The notes beneath the pieces were generated by a model, which was given only the letters and a program-made list of their open reading frames with translations, ran no database searches and was not told the origin of the DNA. The position numbers and the translations under genes were made by a program. Positions 8,946 through 18,311 of a stretch of 45,764 bases of DNA are shown here, piece after piece. Every line of letters starts with the position of its first letter. Positions within the stretch are counted from its first letter, which is position 1. The DNA is from Vicinamibacteria bacterium (lineage in GTDB: Bacteria > Acidobacteriota > Vicinamibacteria > Marinacidobacterales > SMYC01): assembly GCA_035620555.1 (NCBI GenBank), contig DASPGQ010000221.1:1-45764 (forward strand). Reading direction: 5' to 3'.

Positions 8946-9938
8946 TCAGGACTCCGCCTTCAGCGGCCGAGCCATGAGCTCTTCGACGACGGCTTTCGGA
9001 CAGGTCTCCCCGCGCAGCAGTCGTTCCATTTGAAAAGCGATGGGCATTTCGACATCGTGTCGCCGAGCCAGGGCAACCGTCGCGTGGGTGGTTCTGACAC
9101 CCTCGGCGACCTGTACCATGCTGGCGGTCACCTCCTGAATCGATTTGCCACGGCCAAGCTCGACGCCCACGTGTCGGTTGCGGGAAAGGTGGCCGGTGCA
9201 GGTCAGCACCAGATCGCCCATCCCTGCCAGTCCCGCCAGGGTGTCGCGACGTCCGCCCATGGCCTCCGTCAGCCGGGCGATCTCGGCGAGACCTCGGGTC
9301 ATGATGGCGGCGATGGGGTTGTGGCCGAGCCCGAGACCACGGGCCACACCCGCAGCGAGCGCGATGACGTTCTTGACCGCCCCTCCGAGCTCCACGCCGA
9401 TGATATCGCCGCTCGTATAGATGCGAAAACTGGCCATCGAGAAGCTGCTCTGGACAAGCTGTGCCGCTTCTTCGCTAGAGCTCGCGGCCACCAGCGCCGT
9501 CGGTTCGTCTCGGGCAACCTCCGACGCGAACGTTGGCCCGGACAGGACGGTGACGTCCGGCGCGAAGGGAAAGACCTCGGTCACGACCTCGCTCATGCGC
9601 CGCAGCGTCGATTCCTCGAGACCTTTGGTCGCGCTTACGAATCTTTGGCCGGGCCGCACGTGGCCGACGAGGCCCTGAAGCACTCCGCGGAGAAACTGAG
9701 ATGGAACCGCGAGCACCAGGGCTTCGGCCAGTGCCGCCGCCCGCCCCAAGTCTCCCGTCACCGCGAGCTCTTGCGGCAGTCGAACCCCGGGTAGGAAGCG
9801 CTCGTTCACCCGCGTCTCGTGAAGCGAGAGCCGAACGTCCTCCTCGCGGCACCACATGGTGACACGGTGCCCCTTGAGGCACAGGAGTCTCGAAAGTGCC
9901 GTCCCCCAGGCCCCAGCCCCGATGACGGCGACGTTCAC
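8946..9938 (-). CDS. gpsA: NAD(P)H-dependent glycerol-3-phosphate dehydrogenase GpsA
   Basis: A 330-aa protein of normal family length. The Rossmann loop is VIGAGAWGTALSRLL at 4-18, and the GpsA signatures VLSGPTFASEVA (about 133-144) and ELGGAVKNVIALAAGVARGL (catalytic Lys, about 181-200) are intact. It reduces dihydroxyacetone phosphate to sn-glycerol-3-phosphate, the backbone of membrane phospholipids. The start is GTG at 9938, one base after the stop of a 35-aa membrane-peptide gene on the same strand, so the two are probably translationally coupled. It converges with mqnC, the stops being 17 bases apart, with no terminator hairpin between them. Confidence 0.96.
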   Translation of the reverse strand: MNVAVIGAGAWGTALSRLLCLKGHRVTMWCREEDVRLSLHETRVNERFLPGVRLPQELAVTGDLGRAAALAEALVLAVPSQFLRGVLQGLVGHVRPGQRFVSATKGLEESTLRRMSEVVTEVFPFAPDVTVLSGPTFASEVARDEPTALVAASSSEEAAQLVQSSFSMASFRIYTSGDIIGVELGGAVKNVIALAAGVARGLGLGHNPIAAIMTRGLAEIARLTEAMGGRRDTLAGLAGMGDLVLTCTGHLSRNRHVGVELGRGKSIQEVTASMVQVAEGVRTTHATVALARRHDVEMPIAFQMERLLRGETCPKAVVEELMARPLKAES

Positions 9939-9939
9939 G

Positions 9940-10047
9940 TCAGGGCTGGTCCCGTTCCCGTTTCACGTTCTGATAGAGGAAGTAGGCGAATCCACCCCAG
10001 ATACCGCCGACGATGACGAACATCGTTACCAGGGCGCTTGTTTCCAC
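9940..10047 (-). CDS. 35-aa single-pass membrane peptide, MetS-like
   Basis: A short gene starting at GTG 10047 with AAGGAG six bases upstream and ending one base before the gpsA start. The product is METSALVTMFVIVGGIWGGF followed by AYFLYQNVKRERDQP: one hydrophobic helix containing IWGG and a short basic/acidic C-terminus. The pattern M-x-T-x-A-x(3)-M and IWGG resembles the small subunit MetS that accompanies some neurotransmitter:sodium symporter-type amino-acid transporters. That resemblance is from memory. No such transporter is in the window, so a link to GpsA or a trans-acting subunit are both possible. Confidence 0.6.
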   Translation of the reverse strand: METSALVTMFVIVGGIWGGFAYFLYQNVKRERDQP

Positions 10048-10070
10048 GAGGACTCCTTACTTTGCGCCGC

Positions 10071-10241
10071 TCAATCCTCTTCGTCGCCGAAGAAGAAGAA
10101 ATCCGCGCACTGTTTCGAGCAAAACGTGCGACCGCCGCGGTCCACCAAACACTCGTCGCAGTAGTACCGGAAGCAAATGACGCATTTTCTCAGGCGACGC
10201 TCTTCCGAGGTCACCTGGCAGCGAACACACTGTTTTTCCAT
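10071..10241 (-). CDS. 56-aa eight-cysteine zinc-finger-like protein
   Basis: A small gene, ATG at 10241. The product has eight cysteines at 5, 8, 20, 23, 28, 31, 41 and 45: MEKQCVRCQVTSEERR, then LRKCVICFRYYCDECLVD, RGGRTFCSKQCADF and a terminal FFFGDEED. Four CxxC/CxxxC pairs imply two zinc sites in a cross-brace or B-box-like arrangement. The regular Cys spacing over the whole length argues that it is a real coding sequence. It lies 23 bases upstream of the 35-aa membrane peptide and then gpsA, so the three may form one operon. It is divergent from tilS. Function unknown; a regulatory or adaptor role is a guess. Confidence 0.65.
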   Translation of the reverse strand: MEKQCVRCQVTSEERRLRKCVICFRYYCDECLVDRGGRTFCSKQCADFFFFGDEED

Positions 10242-10276
10242 GGCGCGCGGTCGACGCGAGAAATCAGCGTCCTTTC

Positions 10277-10305
10277 TTGACAGGATCTCGGAACTCTCGT
10301 ATCAT
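10277..10305 (+). promoter_or_regulatory. Sigma-70-type promoter for the tilS-hpt-ftsH run
   Basis: TTGACA at 10277-10282 and TATCAT at 10300-10305 are separated by exactly 17 bases, giving a perfect -35 and a 5/6 -10. Transcription would start near 10312, about 60 bases before the tilS ATG. This also argues against any tilS start upstream of 10312. It faces away from the divergent small zinc-finger gene. Confidence 0.75.
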
Positions 10306-10372
10306 ATTACAGTTAGGACGATTTCTCCAGTTGTTTAAAAGCCTGCCCCGCTGGAGGCCCAACCCTCGAGCG

Positions 10373-11782
10373 ATGCTGGTTCGAAGGGTCTCGGCCACCA
10401 TCGAGCGATACGAAATGGTCTCCCCCGGGGAGCGCGTCCTCGTGGGCGTATCCGGAGGAGCCGATTCCGTGGCACTCGCCCAGGTGATGGCCGAGCTGGG
10501 CCATCCTCTCGCCGTCGCCCACTTGAACCACGGTTTGCGCTCCGACGCCGACCAAGACGAGATTTTCGCATCCGCCCTCGCCCAAAGGCTCGGTGTCCCC
10601 TTCGTTTCCGACCGGCTCGACTTGTTGCTCGAGGCAAGAAAAAACCGCCGCTCGATCGAGGACGAAGGGCATCAGGCCCGTTATCGTTTCTTCAAACGGT
10701 CCGCCGCCCGGCTCCGGTGCACACGCATTGCCGTCGGCCACACGATGGACGACCAGGCAGAAACATTCCTGCTCCGGTTGCTCAGAGGGTCGGGAACACG
10801 GGGTCTCGCAGCGGCGTACCCTAAGGTAGATGGCTTGATCATTCGGCCGCTCCTCGAAGCGAGACGAAGCGATGTCGAGGAATTTCTGCACGACCGCGGC
10901 CTGACGTACCGACAGGATTCTTCCAACCAGGATCTCCGTTTTGCGCGAAACCGCGTGCGCCACATGTTGTTGCCCGAGCTTCGGCGCCATTTCAACCCAC
11001 GAGTCGTGGAAGCCCTCGCCGGCGCCGCCGCCCTCCTTCAGGATGATGAGGGGTGGATGGAGCGATTGACAGCCGATGCACTCGGGGAGTTGGCCCGAGA
11101 AACGGACGACGGTGCCCTCGTGCTGGACGTGAGCCCGCTTGCCCACCACTCCGACGCGATGAAGCGCCGCATCGTGCGACAGGCCCTCTCTCGGGTCCGA
11201 GGGCACCTCAGGAACGTGGGTCGGGCCCACGTCGATCAGGTACTCTCGCTTCTCGCCGACGGCAAGAGTGGCCGGGAGCTCCACCTGCCCGGAGTGTTGG
11301 TCCGGCGCTCCTTCGATCGGCTGATCATGACCTGCGAACCAGGACGAATCGAGCGCAACCGCTCGAAACATGGCTATAATGGCTTCGAGTACCGCTTGCC
11401 CATCCCTGCCAAGCTTCTCATCCGGGAGAGGGGAGGGACGCTGACGGCGGCATGGAGGAGAAGCGGAGCGACCGAAGAAATCACGGAGCCGAAGGCTTCG
11501 GGAGACTCGGTGGTCCTGGCTCTCGCGGGAGAGTTTCCCGAGTTGATGGTCAGGAGCGCGCGGCGAGGAGACCGTTTTCGGCCCTTGGGCGCGAGCGGTT
11601 CCAAACCTCTCACGCGATATCTAATGGAACGGAAAGTGCCTAGCGAGAAAAGATGGGCCGTCCCGCTGGTCGCCCGCGCCCGGGGCGGGGAGATCCTCTG
11701 GGTAGTCGGCCATGGGGTTTCGGAGTCTTCCCGTTTGCGCTCGGGAGTGAGACAGCTCGAGCTCGGTTGGGTCGGCGGATGA
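10373..11782 (+). CDS. tilS: tRNA(Ile)-lysidine synthase TilS
   Basis: A 469-aa PP-loop ATPase. The P-loop SGGADS is at 27-32, followed by VAHLNHGLRSDADQDE and GHTMDDQAETFLLRLLRGSG; the C-terminal part (about 370 onward) carries the TilS tRNA-recognition domain, with VRSARRGDRFRPLGASGSKPL. It converts cytidine-34 of the AUA-reading tRNA(Ile) to lysidine, an essential decoding step. I chose the ATG at 10373, downstream of the promoter, with GGAGG further upstream. The stop overlaps the next start as ATGA, coupling it to the hpt-like gene. In Firmicutes the same pair precedes ftsH. Confidence 0.94.
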   Translation: MLVRRVSATIERYEMVSPGERVLVGVSGGADSVALAQVMAELGHPLAVAHLNHGLRSDADQDEIFASALAQRLGVPFVSDRLDLLLEARKNRRSIEDEGHQARYRFFKRSAARLRCTRIAVGHTMDDQAETFLLRLLRGSGTRGLAAAYPKVDGLIIRPLLEARRSDVEEFLHDRGLTYRQDSSNQDLRFARNRVRHMLLPELRRHFNPRVVEALAGAAALLQDDEGWMERLTADALGELARETDDGALVLDVSPLAHHSDAMKRRIVRQALSRVRGHLRNVGRAHVDQVLSLLADGKSGRELHLPGVLVRRSFDRLIMTCEPGRIERNRSKHGYNGFEYRLPIPAKLLIRERGGTLTAAWRRSGATEEITEPKASGDSVVLALAGEFPELMVRSARRGDRFRPLGASGSKPLTRYLMERKVPSEKRWAVPLVARARGGEILWVVGHGVSESSRLRSGVRQLELGWVGG

Positions 11783-12303
11783 CGACCGAGGGAGAATTGA
11801 CGGTGCTCTTCGATGAGGGCGCGATTCGCTCCCGCGTCCACGAGCTCGGACGCACGATCACCGAGGATTTCTCCGAGGGCAACATCGCCTGCGTCGGCGT
11901 TCTGCCCAACTCGTTGGTGTTCATGGCGGACCTCATCCGGCACATTCGCCGCTCGCTTACCTGCGATTTCCTGAAGGTGGATACCCAGAGCCCGAGGCGT
12001 GTCGACATCGCTTTCGGCTCGGCGAGCGATTTCGGAGGCCGCGACGTGCTGCTCATCCAGGGCGTGGTGGACACGGGGGTTACGTTGTCTTTCATCAGGG
12101 GCCAAATCGAGGAGACCTGGAGGCCACGGACCCTGAGGGTTGCGGCTCTCATCAATCGTGAGAACCACCGCAAAGTGGACAGTCCGGTGGATTATGTATG
12201 CTTCGAGCTCACCGAGGAAGGCTTCGCCGCCGGCTATGGGCTCGGGTTCAACGAGCATTTTCGGGGGACGCCTTTTCTCGGAATGATGCGGCAATCAAGG
12301 TAG
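11779..12303 (+). CDS. hpt: Hypoxanthine phosphoribosyltransferase-like protein with eroded active site
   Basis: A 174-aa protein with the HPRT fold over its full length: VFMADLIRHI (48-57), VDYVCFELTEEGFAAGYGLG (138-156) and FRGTPFLGMM at the end. Key residues differ from active enzymes. The PPi-loop LKG is LPN at 42-44. The PRPP-loop acidic pair in EDI(V/I)DTG is QG (QGVVDTG, 94-100). The Asp after YGL/YAL is Gly156, and the purine-binding Lys region reads INREN. Only the Asp of DTG survives. The fold is clear but catalysis is doubtful. The gene overlaps tilS by ATGA and is followed by ftsH; in Bacillus subtilis TilS and HprT are reported to act together on ftsH expression, so a retained non-catalytic role is plausible. 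Confidence 0.88.
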   Translation: MTTEGELTVLFDEGAIRSRVHELGRTITEDFSEGNIACVGVLPNSLVFMADLIRHIRRSLTCDFLKVDTQSPRRVDIAFGSASDFGGRDVLLIQGVVDTGVTLSFIRGQIEETWRPRTLRVAALINRENHRKVDSPVDYVCFELTEEGFAAGYGLGFNEHFRGTPFLGMMRQSR

Positions 12304-12324
12304 AATTCCAGATCGGAGGCAACT

Positions 12325-14259
12325 TTGAACTCTCACATGAAGAACTTGATGTTCTGGATGGTTGCTGCCCTCGTCATCTTTCTCTTCTGGAGCGTCTCTT
12401 CCCGAATCCAGAAGAACGAGCGCGAGCTCAGCTTCAGCGACTTCATGGCACAGCTCGAGCGCGGTCACGTCGCCAAGGTCACCATCACCGGCACGGGAGC
12501 GGGCAGCCAGATCGTCGGCGAGTTCAAGAACGGCCAGTCGATTCGGACGTTTGCGCCACCCCAGGTGGACAACCTCGTGAACACGATGCTGGACAAAGGG
12601 GTCGAAGTCAGGGCCAGGGACGCCAACAGCTCCTCTTGGATTGGCCATATCATCAGCTGGACGCCCATCGTCATCATGATCGCTTTTCTCATCTTCTTCA
12701 TGAGACAGATGCAAGGTTCGGGCAACCGCGCCCTGTCGTTTGGAAAGAGCATGGCCAAGCTGAGCAGCAGCCAGCAGAAAAAAGTGACGTTCAAGGACGT
12801 CGCCGGCGTCGATGAAGCGAAGGAGGAGCTCCAGGAGATCATCGACTTTCTCCGAGAGCCCCAGAAGTTCCAGAAGCTCGGGGGGCGGATTCCCAAAGGC
12901 GTCCTGCTCATGGGTCCTCCGGGAACCGGCAAGACGCTGCTCGCGCGCGCCATCTCCGGCGAAGCCAACGTCCCTTTCTTCTCCATCAGCGGCTCTGACT
13001 TCGTGGAGATGTTCGTGGGAGTGGGCGCGAGCCGCGTGCGCGATCTTTTCGAGCAGGGCAAGAAGAACGCTCCTTGCATCATTTTCATCGACGAGATCGA
13101 CGCGGTAGGCCGCCATCGCGGCGCCGGTCTCGGTGGGGGTCACGACGAGCGGGAGCAGACCTTGAATCAGCTGCTCGTGGAGATGGACGGTTTCGAGTCG
13201 AACGAAGGCGTGATTCTCATCGCCGCCACGAACCGGCCCGACGTCCTGGATCCGGCGCTCCTTCGTCCCGGACGGTTCGACCGGCGCGTCGTGGTATCGC
13301 TCCCCGACGTTCTGGGACGCGAGGGTGTCCTGAAGGTCCACACGAGCCGCATCCCGCTCGCGAACGATGTCAACCTCACGATCCTGGCGCGCGGGACGCC
13401 GGGGTTCTCCGGCGCTGATCTGGCAAATCTCGTCAACGAAGCCGCGTTGAACGCGGCGCGGCGGGGGCAAAAAGTCGTCATGATGGACGACTTCGAGGAG
13501 GCCAAGGACAAAGTGCTCATGGGCGCCGAAAGGCGCTCGATGATCATGAGCGACGAGGAGAAGAAAACGACCGCCTATCACGAGGCGGGTCACGCTCTGG
13601 TCGCCGCATTCATCGACAAGGCGGACCCGATCCACAAGGTCACGATCATCCCCAGGGGAATGGCCATGGGCGTGACCATGCTTTTGCCCGAAACCGATCG
13701 CCACAGCCACGACAAGGAGTACGTGGAGGCCATGATCGCCGTCAAGATGGGCGGCCGGATCGCCGAAGAGATGGTGCTCGGACAGATGACCACCGGTGCC
13801 CACGACGATCTGGAGAAGGCGACGGAGCTGGCGCGCAAGATGGTCTGTGAGTGGGGCATGAGCGAGAAGATGGGACCTCTCACGTTCGGCAGACGTGAGG
13901 AGCAGGTTTTCCTCGGACGCGACATCGCTCGTCACCAGGACTACAGCGAGGACACCGCCATCAAGATCGACCAGGAGGTCAAGCGCATCGTGGAGCAGAG
14001 CTACGCCAAGGCGAAGGCTCTCCTCACGGAGAATCGGGCCATATTGGAGCGGGTGTCCGAGGCCCTCCTCGAACGGGAGGTCCTCGACGCCGAGGAAGTG
14101 AAGTTGCTGATCGAGGGGCTGCCGCTCAAGGAAAAGGAGCCGACGGCTCGTGATCTGGTAGCGGAGAAGCCGGAGCCCAAAGGGAAGGAAGAAAAGGAGC
14201 GTAAAGCTCCCCTGACACCTCCTATTCTGCAGAATCCGGGAAGCGTCACGCAGAGCTAG
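12325..14259 (+). CDS. ftsH: ATP-dependent zinc metalloprotease FtsH
   Basis: A 644-aa inner-membrane AAA+ protease. Two transmembrane segments (about 6-24 and 110-126) flank a periplasmic domain. Walker A GPPGTGKT is at about 198-205, [12 protein letters not shown] is Walker [14 protein letters not shown] carries the arginine finger region, and HEAGH at 419-423 is the zinc site. The C-terminus ends in a basic/Pro-rich tail. It degrades misfolded membrane proteins and, in many bacteria, controls LPS synthesis. The start is TTG at 12325, with GGAGG ending five bases upstream; the ATG at 12337 is too far from that site. It follows the hpt-like gene by 21 bases. Confidence 0.97.
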
Positions 14260-14311: not shown

Positions 14312-15178
14312 GTGCGTTGGCTGACGTTTCGCGCAAGGGACAAAGCGCTGATCTTGGGCAAGAGGACTGCGCTCATGGGGGTCGTAAACGTGACCCCGGA
14401 CTCCTTCTACTCCGCGAGCCGCGTCCTCGACGAGTCCGCCGCGGTGGAAAGGGCTCTGATGATGGTGGAGGCGGGCGCGGACATCATCGACATCGGCGGC
14501 GAATCCACGCGCCCGGGGGCCGAAGATCTGTCCGAGAGCCAAGAGCTGGACCGGGTCATCCCCGTCGTCGAGAGGCTCCGCCGGGAGACCGAAGTCATAC
14601 TCTCGGTGGACACGCGCAAAGCGGCCGTGGCGAAGCGCGCTCTCGTGGCCGGCGCCGACGTGATCAACGACGTCTCCGCCCTGAGCGCCGACGAGCGAAT
14701 GGCGTCCGTCGTGGCGGAGTCCGGGGCGGGCGTCGTCCTCATGCACATGAAGGGACGCCCGAAGACCATGCAGGAACAGCCAAGGTATGACGACGTCGTC
14801 GCCGAGGTCCGGGCTCATCTTCGAGACCAGGTTCGACTCGCGGAGCGCGCCGGGATCCGAAGCGAATCCATCCTGGTCGACCCCGGAATCGGATTCGGCA
14901 AGTCTCTCGAGCACAACTTGATGCTGCTGAACCGGCTTCCCGAGCTTCTTAGTCTGGGCAAACCCATTCTCGTGGGAACCTCGCGAAAGAGCTTTCTTGG
15001 TCGCATTCTCTCGCGACCGCCCGAGCAAAGGCTCTTCGCCACCGCCTCGAGCGTTGCCTGCGCGGTGCTCCGCGGCACCCACTTGGTGCGGGTCCACGAC
15101 GTTGCCGAGATGCGTGACGTTCTTCTCGTGGCCGATGCCGTCAGGAACGAGAAGGCGGATTCGGGCGAGAGCCGATGA
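14312..15178 (+). CDS. folP: Dihydropteroate synthase FolP
   Basis: A 288-aa TIM-barrel enzyme. ALMGVVNVTPDSFYS (about 21-35) and DIIDIGGESTRPGAE (about 58-72) are the two DHPS signatures, followed by the pterin-site segments ILVDPGIGFGKSLEHN and PILVGTSRKSFLG. It condenses p-aminobenzoate with hydroxymethyldihydropterin diphosphate in folate synthesis and is the sulfonamide target. The start is GTG at 14312, 52 bases after ftsH. The stop overlaps the cdaA start by four bases (ATGA). The pterin branch may be fed by the PTPS-III-type enzyme encoded at 21560-21937. Confidence 0.96.
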   Translation: MRWLTFRARDKALILGKRTALMGVVNVTPDSFYSASRVLDESAAVERALMMVEAGADIIDIGGESTRPGAEDLSESQELDRVIPVVERLRRETEVILSVDTRKAAVAKRALVAGADVINDVSALSADERMASVVAESGAGVVLMHMKGRPKTMQEQPRYDDVVAEVRAHLRDQVRLAERAGIRSESILVDPGIGFGKSLEHNLMLLNRLPELLSLGKPILVGTSRKSFLGRILSRPPEQRLFATASSVACAVLRGTHLVRVHDVAEMRDVLLVADAVRNEKADSGESR

Positions 15179-16032
15179 GCACCGCCACCGAGTTTCTCTG
15201 GGATCTGGCGCGCGATCTGACGTGGACGGGTGTCGTCGACATTCTCCTGGTCAGCTACCTCTTCTACAAGCTGTTCCAGCTCATCCGCGGCGGGCGCGCC
15301 TTCCAGATGGTCGTGGGCACCCTGGTTCTCGTGCTCTTTTTCTTCGTGTCGCGCTGGGCGCAGCTTTCGACGGTAAACTGGCTGCTCAGAAATTCGCTGG
15401 CTTACGTGGGTTTCGCCGTGATCGTGCTCTACCAGCAGGAGCTTCGCAAGGCGCTGTCTCAACTGGGCCAGGCTCCGCTCTTCCGCTTTCTCAATCCGAC
15501 TTCGAGCAAGGGTACGATCGACGAGGTCGTCTTTTCAGTGATTGCGCTGGCCCAGCGTCGGATTGGGGGCATCGTCGTGCTCGAGCGTGACATCGGTCTG
15601 AGAAGCTATATCGAGGGCGGCGTACTGCTCGATGCGGTCGTCACTTACGATCTGATGCTTTCCATCTTCAATCCCAAGTCCCCGCTTCACGATGGCGCGG
15701 TGATCGTGCAGGGCAACCGGGTCGCGGCCGCTGCCTGTTTTCTCCCGATCTCGATCAACCCCCAGCTGTCGAGAGCCCTTGGAACGCGGCATCGCGCCGC
15801 ACTGGGCATCACGGAAGACACCGACGCCGTTGCGATCGTCGTGTCGGAGGAGACGGGTGTGGTGAGCTTCGTCGAGAACGGTGCCCTCTTTCAGGGTCTC
15901 GATTCCGATGGACTGCGCCAACGTCTTCGAGATGCCCTGGGGCAGTCGGAGAAGGCTTCCGAAAAGGACCTCGAGAAAAGGGGGTCCGACCGGGCCGGTG
16001 AAGAACCGAGCCGCACGGGTACGGTCGGATGA
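15175..16032 (+). CDS. cdaA: Diadenylate cyclase CdaA
   Basis: A 285-aa membrane-bound enzyme with an N-terminal hydrophobic region (about residues 18-80, three helices) and a DisA_N catalytic domain. The catalytic DGA is at 173-175 in SPLHDGAVIV, and the RHR motif is at 205-207 in GTRHRAALG. It joins two ATP molecules into c-di-AMP, a second messenger controlling potassium, osmolytes and the cell wall. It overlaps folP and cdaR by ATGA at both ends, so translation of the three is probably coupled. The last 35 residues are charged and likely disordered. Its presence in a diderm is less common than in Firmicutes. Confidence 0.95.
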   Translation: MSTATEFLWDLARDLTWTGVVDILLVSYLFYKLFQLIRGGRAFQMVVGTLVLVLFFFVSRWAQLSTVNWLLRNSLAYVGFAVIVLYQQELRKALSQLGQAPLFRFLNPTSSKGTIDEVVFSVIALAQRRIGGIVVLERDIGLRSYIEGGVLLDAVVTYDLMLSIFNPKSPLHDGAVIVQGNRVAAAACFLPISINPQLSRALGTRHRAALGITEDTDAVAIVVSEETGVVSFVENGALFQGLDSDGLRQRLRDALGQSEKASEKDLEKRGSDRAGEEPSRTGTVG

Positions 16033-16943
16033 CGGCGCGTTTGACGGGCAACCTCGGTCTGAAGATCCTCGCCCTACTGCTGGGATTCTCGCTTTGGTAC
16101 GCCGTTGCCCGAGAGCAGGGGGCCGAGTTCGCCTTCACCCTTCCGCTCGAGCTACGTGGTGTGCCCGAGGGGCTCGAGGTGGTCGAGGAATCGGCGCAGC
16201 AAGTCGAGGTTCGTCTTCGGGGATCTGCCGAGCTCTTGAGGCGGCTGACCACGTCCGACATCGTCGTCACCGTCGATCTGTCGGATGCAGAACCGGGCGA
16301 GCGCATCGCCTACCTCACTCCCGAGAATGTCAAAGTGCCGTTTGGAGCCCGCGTGATGCGGGTCACCCCGACGAGCATCAAGCTCGAGCTCGACCGCACG
16401 CTCGGGCGGGCCGTGGAGGTGATTCCCCGCGTGCTGGGTTCACCGGCGACCGGATTCGAGTTGCTCGATATCGAGCTCACGCCGCGTCAAATCACCGTGG
16501 TCGGGCCGGCATCGCGTTTGAAAGGCCTCGAGCAGGTGACCACCGAGCCGATCTCCGCCGAAGGACTGCGAGAGCCCTACTCGCGCGCCGTTCGCGTGGA
16601 GCTCGACCCGCTAGTGCGGATCGACCGGGACACAACGGTGGAAATCACCCTCCAGGTGGGCGAGGAGCGGATCCGAAGGGAGATCAGCGGGGTCGTCGTC
16701 GTGGGAGACCCGGAATCGAGCTCGGCGCGGCTCGATCCGAAGACCCTGCGCGTCATCGTCGAGGGACCGAGGAGCCTCGTCGAAGCGCTTTCAACCGAAG
16801 ACCTGGTGGCGACGGTGCCTCTGGGTGGACTGTCCAGCGGGCGCCACAGCTTGGCTCCCATCGTAAGGGCGCGTTCCGCCTACATGACGCAGGTCGAGGT
16901 GATTGGGATCAAGCCCGAGGAGATAACCGTCAGAATCCCGTAA
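16029..16943 (+). CDS. cdaR: CdaR-like YbbR-domain protein
   Basis: A 304-aa protein with one N-terminal membrane helix (LGLKILALLLGFSLWYAVA, about 8-26) and a long extracytoplasmic part built of YbbR-type repeats. Recurring signs are PLELRGVPEGLEVVEESAQQ, LTPENVKVPFGARVM and the repeated VEVIPRVLGSPATGFEL / VTLQVGEE strands. CdaR proteins bind and modulate CdaA from the outer face of the membrane. It overlaps cdaA by ATGA and is followed by glmM, the same partner trio known in Firmicutes. Sequence conservation in this family is weak, so context carries much of the call. Confidence 0.85.
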   Translation: MTARLTGNLGLKILALLLGFSLWYAVAREQGAEFAFTLPLELRGVPEGLEVVEESAQQVEVRLRGSAELLRRLTTSDIVVTVDLSDAEPGERIAYLTPENVKVPFGARVMRVTPTSIKLELDRTLGRAVEVIPRVLGSPATGFELLDIELTPRQITVVGPASRLKGLEQVTTEPISAEGLREPYSRAVRVELDPLVRIDRDTTVEITLQVGEERIRREISGVVVVGDPESSSARLDPKTLRVIVEGPRSLVEALSTEDLVATVPLGGLSSGRHSLAPIVRARSAYMTQVEVIGIKPEEITVRIP

Positions 16944-16982
16944 GCGGAAGACGGGATGTTGCGGGAGAGAGATGGGTCGAGG

Positions 16983-18311
16983 ATGAGCTTGTTCGGCACC
17001 GATGGAATTCGTGGCGTGGCCTACTCACCTCCTCTCGACCGAGAAACGGTGACCCGCGTGGGGATTGCGCTCGCTCGAAACCTGCCGTCCTCGCCCCGGG
17101 TGCTCATCGGGAGGGACACTCGGGCGAGCGGTCCCGACCTCGAGCGCTGGCTCACCGGAGGCCTGGTGGCCGATGGGGCCGTCGTGGAGTCCGCCGGTGT
17201 CCTTACGACCCCCGCGATCGCCTTTCTCACGCAAAGGCTCGGGTTCGACGCCGGCGTGGTCATCTCCGCATCCCATAATCCCTATCGGGACAACGGCATC
17301 AAGATCCTGATGGCGAGTGGGCACAAACTCGACGATGAGATCGAGAAGGCGATCGAAGAGGACGTTCGCCGTGGCCGGCCCGTTCCCCAAGAACCGGGGA
17401 GCCCGCGCCCGCCGGAGCCTCGTTTCGCGTCGCTCTACGTCGATCATCTCATCGGCGCTCTCGGAGGAGTGCAGCCACAATCGCTCCCCCTCGTGCTCGA
17501 TTGCGCCCACGGCGCCGGCTACCGGGTCGGGCCAGAACTTCTCGGTAGGCTCGGACTCGCTCCTCGTATACTGGCGGCCGAGCCCAATGGCCAGAACATC
17601 AACCGAGAGTGCGGCTCGACTCACCTCGAGGGCCTCTGCAGGAAGGTCGTCGAGGAGGGACTCTCCCTCGGAGCGGCGCTCGATGGGGACGGTGACCGGT
17701 TGCTCCTTTGCGACAAGACCGGCCGGCTCGTCGACGGGGATGCCATTCTGCTGGCGTCGGCACGAAGGCTAAAGAAAGAAGGGCGGCTTTTGGGCGATGG
17801 TGTCGTGGCCACGGTGATGAGCAACATGGCTCTCGAGGTTGCTCTGGAGCACGAAGGCATCCGTCTTCACCGCACACAAGTTGGCGACAAGTTCGTCTCC
17901 CGTGAAATGAAAGAAAGAAACATCGTTCTCGGGGGCGAGCAGTCGGGGCATATCATCTATGCCGAGTTCGCTTCGACGGGAGACGGGCTCTTGACCTTAC
18001 TTCAGGTCTTGCGGGTACTGGCGCTCGAGGGGAAGGGGTTGGATGAGGTCGGCCGTCTCGAGCCGTTTCCGCAAGTCCTGACGAGCGTCCGAGTGTCCCA
18101 GCGGCCCGACGTTCGGGACGTCCCGGAGATAGCCGAAGCGATTCTCGGGGCGGAACGAATGCTCGAGGGCCGGGGACGAATCCTCGTCCGGTACTCGGGA
18201 ACGGAACCGCTGTTACGGATCATGGTCGAGGGACCCGAGAGAAACGAGATCGAAGACATCGCCGCGCGCCTCTCCACCGCGGTAGAAGCGTCGATCGGAG
18301 AACCGGCGTGA
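16983..18311 (+). CDS. glmM: Phosphoglucosamine mutase GlmM
   Basis: A 442-aa alpha-D-phosphohexomutase. The family opening LFGTDGIRG is at 3-11; the phosphoserine loop ISASHNPYRDNG places the catalytic Ser at 97; ALDGDGDRLLL holds the Mg2+ aspartates; and the C-terminal VRYSGTEPLLRIMVEG binds phosphate. It converts glucosamine-6-phosphate to glucosamine-1-phosphate for peptidoglycan and LPS precursors. I chose the ATG at 16983 because the family starts right there; an in-frame ATG at 16956 with GGAAG upstream would add nine residues. Next to cdaA-cdaR it may be regulated by direct contact with CdaA, as described in Firmicutes. Confidence 0.96.
   Translation: MSLFGTDGIRGVAYSPPLDRETVTRVGIALARNLPSSPRVLIGRDTRASGPDLERWLTGGLVADGAVVESAGVLTTPAIAFLTQRLGFDAGVVISASHNPYRDNGIKILMASGHKLDDEIEKAIEEDVRRGRPVPQEPGSPRPPEPRFASLYVDHLIGALGGVQPQSLPLVLDCAHGAGYRVGPELLGRLGLAPRILAAEPNGQNINRECGSTHLEGLCRKVVEEGLSLGAALDGDGDRLLLCDKTGRLVDGDAILLASARRLKKEGRLLGDGVVATVMSNMALEVALEHEGIRLHRTQVGDKFVSREMKERNIVLGGEQSGHIIYAEFASTGDGLLTLLQVLRVLALEGKGLDEVGRLEPFPQVLTSVRVSQRPDVRDVPEIAEAILGAERMLEGRGRILVRYSGTEPLLRIMVEGPERNEIEDIAARLSTAVEASIGEPA

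Follow-up and report, generated by a model that had tools for sequence, protein, structure and literature searches.

The locus analyzed here raises the question of why a gene for a hypoxanthine phosphoribosyltransferase (HPRT) homologue with much of its active site lost should persist between tilS and ftsH, and what its product (P0001) would do there. The gene lies in a 45,764-nucleotide stretch of Acidobacteriota DNA, which we refer to as the window. The original prediction was that it encodes an Hpt lacking several catalytic signatures but aligning with HPRT over its whole length, and the latter was borne out by a homologue search of the PDB, in which residues 9–171 of the 174-residue product, read without an internal stop, aligned to solved HPRTs (1r3u, E = 6.8e-27). 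P0001 scored 113 bits against TIGR01203 (HGPRTase), below the curated cut-off of 150 bits, as did the corresponding products of all four members of the window's family (105.0–116.9 bits), while it passed the general PRTase model PF00156 (32.1 bits; gathering cut-off 26.3). An AF2 model computed on alignment A3 (44 rows) reached a pLDDT of 91.4 and a pTM of 0.88, its top Foldseek match was 5knv_B (TM 0.88), and all 50 PDB matches listed for it were HPRTs, predicting that P0001 has kept the HPRT fold.

We then evaluated the active site residue by residue (Table 1). P0001 lacked 7 of 13 HPRT active-site features, and the alignment contained every change named in the original prediction (LPN for LKG, QG for ED, Gly after YGL, and the missing purine Lys), together with one absent from its list, the loss of approximately five residues and of Ser-Tyr from loop II. 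The late Asp of HPRT, which is replaced by Gly, has a role in Mg binding. Asp98, T99-G100-x-T102, Phe149 and R162 were retained. According to PMC6783271, ppGpp bound to B. anthracis Hpt-1 is held by the side chains of Glu99, Asp100, Lys131 and Arg165, and also by an Ile101/Phe152/Leu158 cleft and the backbone amides of Asp103–Thr107. The counterparts in P0001, as aligned, are Gln94 and Gly95 (for Glu99 and Asp100), Arg127, Arg162, Phe149, Leu155 and an intact D98-T-G-V-T102, so that P0001 lacks the acidic pair and the purine Lys but keeps the phosphate loop, the stacking Phe and the Arg.

Table 1. Features of the tilS–hpt–ftsH locus, in window coordinates
Feature	Codons	Position	Strand	Basis and remarks
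Promoter-like site TTGACA-17-TATCAT		10277..10305	+	Upstream of tilS; consensus scan, 11/12 matches, consensus only
tilS, tRNA(Ile) lysidine synthetase, N- and C-terminal domains		10373..11782	+	TIGR02432, TIGR02433
pseudo-hpt (P0001)		11779..12303	+	Predicted HPRT fold with degraded active site
LPN replacing PPi-loop LKG/LRG	42-44	11902..11910	+	Alignment; L42-P43-N44
Flexible loop II, shortened, without Ser-Tyr	66-76	11974..12006	+	Alignment, 13-feature check
Gln-Gly (Q94-G95) replacing PRPP-binding Glu-Asp	94-95	12058..12063	+	Alignment
DTGVT, retained phosphate-binding loop and Asp98	98-102	12070..12084	+	Alignment
R127 replacing purine-contact Lys	127	12157..12159	+	Alignment
G156 replacing Asp of GYGLD	156	12244..12246	+	Alignment
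ftsH		12325..14259	+	TIGR01241, 874 bits; TTG start, GGAGG Shine-Dalgarno

The same gene was present between tilS and ftsH in the other three genomes of the window's family (f1), each from another genus, with 69, 69 and 60% identity to P0001. Residues 43, 44, 94, 95, 127 and 156 were P, N, Q, G, R and G in all four genomes, with codons varying synonymously; 96 of the 174 columns of the family alignment are invariant, which gives a chance p of ~0.026 for all six positions. Pairwise dN/dS for pseudo-hpt was 0.11–0.19 (6 pairs), compared with 0.04–0.14 for canonical copy A (3 pairs), 0.13–0.26 for canonical copy B (6 pairs) and 0.20–0.29 for tilS (6 pairs), all rough values because synonymous sites are near saturation. 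Judged from these comparisons, pseudo-hpt is under purifying selection.

Canonical HPRTs unlinked to the tilS/ftsH locus were found in each of the four family genomes, with 2, 2, 2 and 1 above the TIGR01203 cut-off elsewhere in G000–G003, respectively (G003 is 75% complete). The two in the window's genome, on C715 (224 bits) and C89 (203 bits), have complete motifs, so purine salvage can be done by those copies, and we rejected the notion that the genome lacks it. The original prediction had raised two questions here, and both were answered in the affirmative: the changes are shared by all four family members, and the genome holds a second intact hpt and indeed a third. Beside the C715 copy (L001:1474-3295), in convergent orientation, lie apparent cytidine deaminase and purine nucleoside phosphorylase genes, a putative salvage neighbourhood. 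Together, the shared changes, the purifying selection and the intact HPRTs elsewhere support a non-catalytic Hpt retained with its fold. On the evidence of the sequences, P0001 is very probably a pseudoenzyme; its retention for a non-catalytic function is probable, and we consider it likely that both statements hold at once.

Next, we profiled the distribution of this arrangement. In a first draw of 60 genomes of the class, 59 of which had some Hpt match, hpt adjoined tilS and/or ftsH in three families, f1 (4/4 genomes), f3 (11 genomes, with hpt next to ftsH alone at a contig end in one of the 11 loci) and f7 (3 genomes). The linked copies of f3 and f7 were intermediate, having lost Ser-Tyr, with KS or KN in the PPi loop in most, a mostly Asp-Asp acidic pair, and Lys (f3) or Arg (f7) at the purine-contact position. 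We also inspected the region upstream of ftsH in 20 pieces from other families of the class (ftsH start visible in 19); tilS was recognized in all 20 and hpt, at E 1e-3, in none. Five of these pieces came from the sister family f2, which shows hpt to be dispensable there and not essential in general. In f2 (L092–L096), the TilS match broke off at query residue 343–355, some 200 nt short of ftsH, giving the appearance of an absent or highly diverged C-terminal domain; for most of the remaining 15 pieces it ran on to residue 470–501.

At the level of the phylum, we sampled 39 pieces upstream of ftsH, generally one or two for each family, out of 68 genomes in which ftsH was matched; a fortieth piece came from an hpt contig. 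hpt was present in 15 of the 39 and not seen in 24, comprising 16 with tilS but no hpt and 8 in which neither was recognized (one of only 365 nt). Absence from this many relatives shows that the eroded linked Hpt is not always needed. The tilS match lay 1–2 kb away from hpt in L251 and L277. One f3-like linked hpt with ftsH at a contig end (L222:5-541, G216:C1) came from a genome in a different class of Acidobacteriota and would reflect either bin contamination or horizontal transfer.

We assembled a set of 50 linked copies from 23 families, which includes loci recruited by similarity to the class copies and is to that extent a biased source. The linked Acidobacteriota copies had lost on average 2.98 of the 13 features (range 0 to 10), compared with 0.05 for unlinked copies of the class (n = 62) and 0 for those of the phylum draw (n = 19). 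The mean loss among 79 loci of other organisms was 0.10, and 0.11 among the 18 of them linked to tilS/ftsH, although these loci were found with motif patterns, which favours intact copies and makes the claim that erosion is special to Acidobacteriota provisional. Loss of more than one feature was seen in 0/81 unlinked Acidobacteriota copies and 0/79 loci of other organisms, and loss of the acidic pair or the catalytic Asp in 18/50 linked versus 0/81 unlinked Acidobacteriota copies. None of the 80 loci returned by a motif-pattern contig scan, whose motifs were all complete or almost so, came from the window's family.

Erosion was uneven across the site. The phosphate-loop Thr was kept in all 50 linked copies and the Gly in 49, the catalytic Asp in 46, the second acidic residue in 40, the late Asp in 37, the first acidic residue in 33, and Ser-Tyr in only 4, one of these by regex accident. 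The most eroded families were f33 (10 features lost) and f41, f48 and f53 (8 each), in which the catalytic Asp itself is gone; the window's family had lost 7. Copies L261, L268, L277 and L282, from four other Acidobacteriota families, have lost the catalytic Asp (KDV..S/R motif) and are more degraded than P0001. Long branches occur among the four lineages without this residue, which may be undergoing no more than decay. The linked copies of family f24 (L241, L251) read LNSS and VG[TS]VIDTG. In several Acidobacteriota families, annotating the tilS-linked gene as "hypoxanthine phosphoribosyltransferase" would probably be an error.

To relate erosion to the presence of a second enzyme, we divided the 50 genomes with a linked copy into those in which another full HPRT was found (25) and those in which none was found (25). 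The core, meaning the acidic pair and the catalytic Asp, was lost in 13/25 of the former versus 5/25 of the latter (p = 0.038, a weak test, with related genomes not independent). Counted by family, a second HPRT accompanied 7/8 core-lost versus 2/13 core-intact families (p = 0.0022, two ties dropped), and the median TIGR01203 score of the linked copy was 144 bits with a second HPRT versus 171 bits without. These patterns suggest that a linked copy can erode freely where the chemistry is provided by another HPRT. The exceptions, in which the core is changed and a second HPRT was not found (f36 with three genomes, G203 and G213), imply that a changed copy may in some cases remain the sole enzyme; in G203, hypoxanthine salvage may be lacking or be done by the linked protein. 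That the eroded linked Hpts are retained for long, most lineages keeping the phosphate loop, points to an additional function.

Phylogenetic analysis placed the 18 linked copies of the class in one group (support 100/97), and likewise the 37 linked copies of the phylum tree (98/96), in which Bacillota and other linked copies sat among the canonical ones. With the motif columns removed, the linked state required two changes in a quick tree, and the linked group was supported at 85/42 in a 71-row tree, appearing in 80% of 200 bootstraps. A single origin of the linked Acidobacteriota Hpts is likely from these alignments, if less well supported once the motif columns are dropped. In the 71-row tree, the state in which the acidic pair and the catalytic Asp are intact changed at least six times, and three rows (L261, L277 and L278) formed long branches.

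The organization of the locus bears on what the protein may do. TilS was identified by both of its domains (TIGR02432, 168 bits, cut-off 93.6; TIGR02433, 34.3 bits, cut-off 20.2; searched as 10376-11779), with the start codon being our choice within a frame that opens at 10277. Its stop codon overlaps the pseudo-hpt start as ATGA in 4/4 family genomes, all of which also share the TTG start and GGAGG of ftsH. Downstream, ORFs at 14312-18311 read as folP, cdaA, a ybbR-like gene and glmM. The original prediction had likened the locus to a Firmicutes cluster, correctly as regards the order tilS-hpt-ftsH but not the host, which is an acidobacterium. The promoter-like site upstream of tilS was the only one on the + strand in a consensus scan of 9900-12500 and is a possible promoter of a tilS-hpt-ftsH transcript.

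From these features we propose that P0001 is one Acidobacteriota family's member of an Hpt lineage seated between tilS and ftsH, and that it would no longer make IMP or GMP. Retention of the DTGxT loop, the stacking Phe and the conserved Arg suggests that it may bind a purine nucleotide without turnover. tilS, pseudo-hpt and ftsH would form one transcript, and P0001 would probably be co-produced with TilS through translational coupling and may bind it. Its role would most plausibly be that of a TilS partner or a nucleotide-binding regulator, that is, a TilS-associated subunit or a nucleotide-responsive regulator of the operon acting on lysidine synthesis and/or FtsH supply. TilS is the first candidate partner because TilS and HprT of B. 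subtilis are reported, in PMC8152036 citing Lin 2014, as a complex that activates ftsH; for P0001, gene order and overlap are what point to TilS, and we advance the pairing tentatively, as conceivable but short of an even chance. In a broader scenario, a phylum-wide Hpt lineage fixed at tilS-ftsH would have shed catalysis repeatedly, in each case where salvage passed to a second HPRT, since its ancestor already had a non-enzymatic job, as a TilS subunit and a purine-nucleotide or (p)ppGpp sensor through which purine status would be coupled to tRNA modification and FtsH supply. Taken whole, this scenario is speculative and rather unlikely; if true, the degraded linked copies would reveal the moonlighting function freed from the enzyme.

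The alternative closest to the original prediction is that the dead Hpt, in complex with TilS, activates ftsH transcription as in B. subtilis. The shared gene order and that reported precedent speak for it, and such a role would tolerate the loss of catalysis. However, the hpt-ftsH gap is 21 nt long and contains the Shine-Dalgarno sequence; no inverted repeat of at least 8 nt lay wholly inside it, and no promoter-like site was found on the + strand between 10306 and 12500 by the consensus scan, which covers one type of promoter. In addition, each of the 18 linked loci sampled from other organisms, most of them Bacillota, retains either 12 or 13 of the 13 features, and the B. subtilis role accordingly does not seem tied to a dead enzyme. 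We consider this activator model unlikely.

A second alternative is that P0001 still carries out phosphoribosyl transfer, but with another metal or mode of substrate use. In its favour, both Asp98 and the phosphate loop are retained, and the linked copies of f21, f35, f46 and f59 keep the acidic pair without Ser-Tyr while being the sole HPRT found in their genomes. Activity is therefore compatible with a missing loop II motif by itself, and we rejected that loss as a mark of a dead enzyme. The window's family, however, has lost both PRPP-loop acids, the late Asp and the PPi-loop Lys-Gly together, and the acidic pair is among the residues that hold ligand in HPRT, according to PMC6783271. Altered transfer appears distinctly unlikely on this basis.

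It is also conceivable that the product itself is functionless, its frame being kept to couple translation from tilS to ftsH. The ATGA overlap and short gap in 4/4 family genomes would fit, as would the relatives in which tilS adjoins ftsH without hpt. Against this stand the high-confidence predicted fold and, more directly, the dN/dS values of 0.11–0.19 and the invariant altered residues, which indicate selection on the protein and not just on an open frame, and we regard the idea as very improbable. Finally, although the window's genome is a draft of 835 contigs, recent decay or assembly or sequencing error was rejected as having almost no chance of being correct, since substitutions unique to this sequence, which would have told against the original prediction, are excluded by the same changes in open frames in 4/4 genomes of four genera at 60–69% identity to P0001.

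Compared with known systems, P0001 under the favoured reading of a retained pseudoenzyme shares with HPRTs of the TIGR01203 type its whole-length homology, fold, phosphate loop, Asp98, Phe149 and Arg162; it differs in falling under the cut-off (113 versus 150 bits) and in having lost the PPi loop, Ser-Tyr, the acidic pair, the purine Lys and the late Asp. The vertebrate HPRT homologue PRTFDC1, whose structure (2jbh) was among the PDB matches of P0001, is an HPRT paralogue of low activity that has lost a catalytic residue and is maintained alongside an intact HPRT, but it has no operon context and other residues are changed. PyrR, a PRTase fold serving as an RNA-binding regulator, provides a precedent for this fold in regulation, although the best PyrR model gave P0001 a score of just 18.5 bits. 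A pseudo-HPRT as such is thus a known kind of protein; for the tilS-ftsH-linked Acidobacteriota form we found no published description, nor one of any degenerate or Acidobacteria Hpt, in the literature searched, which comprised search listings with most subscription papers outside their scope. The TilS-HprT system of B. subtilis shares the tilS-hpt-ftsH order and the tilS/hpt overlap. It differs in that HprT there is a described salvage enzyme, whereas the active site of P0001 is degraded and its host is an acidobacterium, and in that the consensus scan of the window showed no ftsH promoter between hpt and ftsH and any complex of P0001 with TilS is putative. In B. subtilis, the reported second job of HprT is difficult to isolate, as the same protein works as a metabolic enzyme; a dead Hpt retained at this locus in genomes with intact HPRTs would be a natural separation of function, making the question directly testable.
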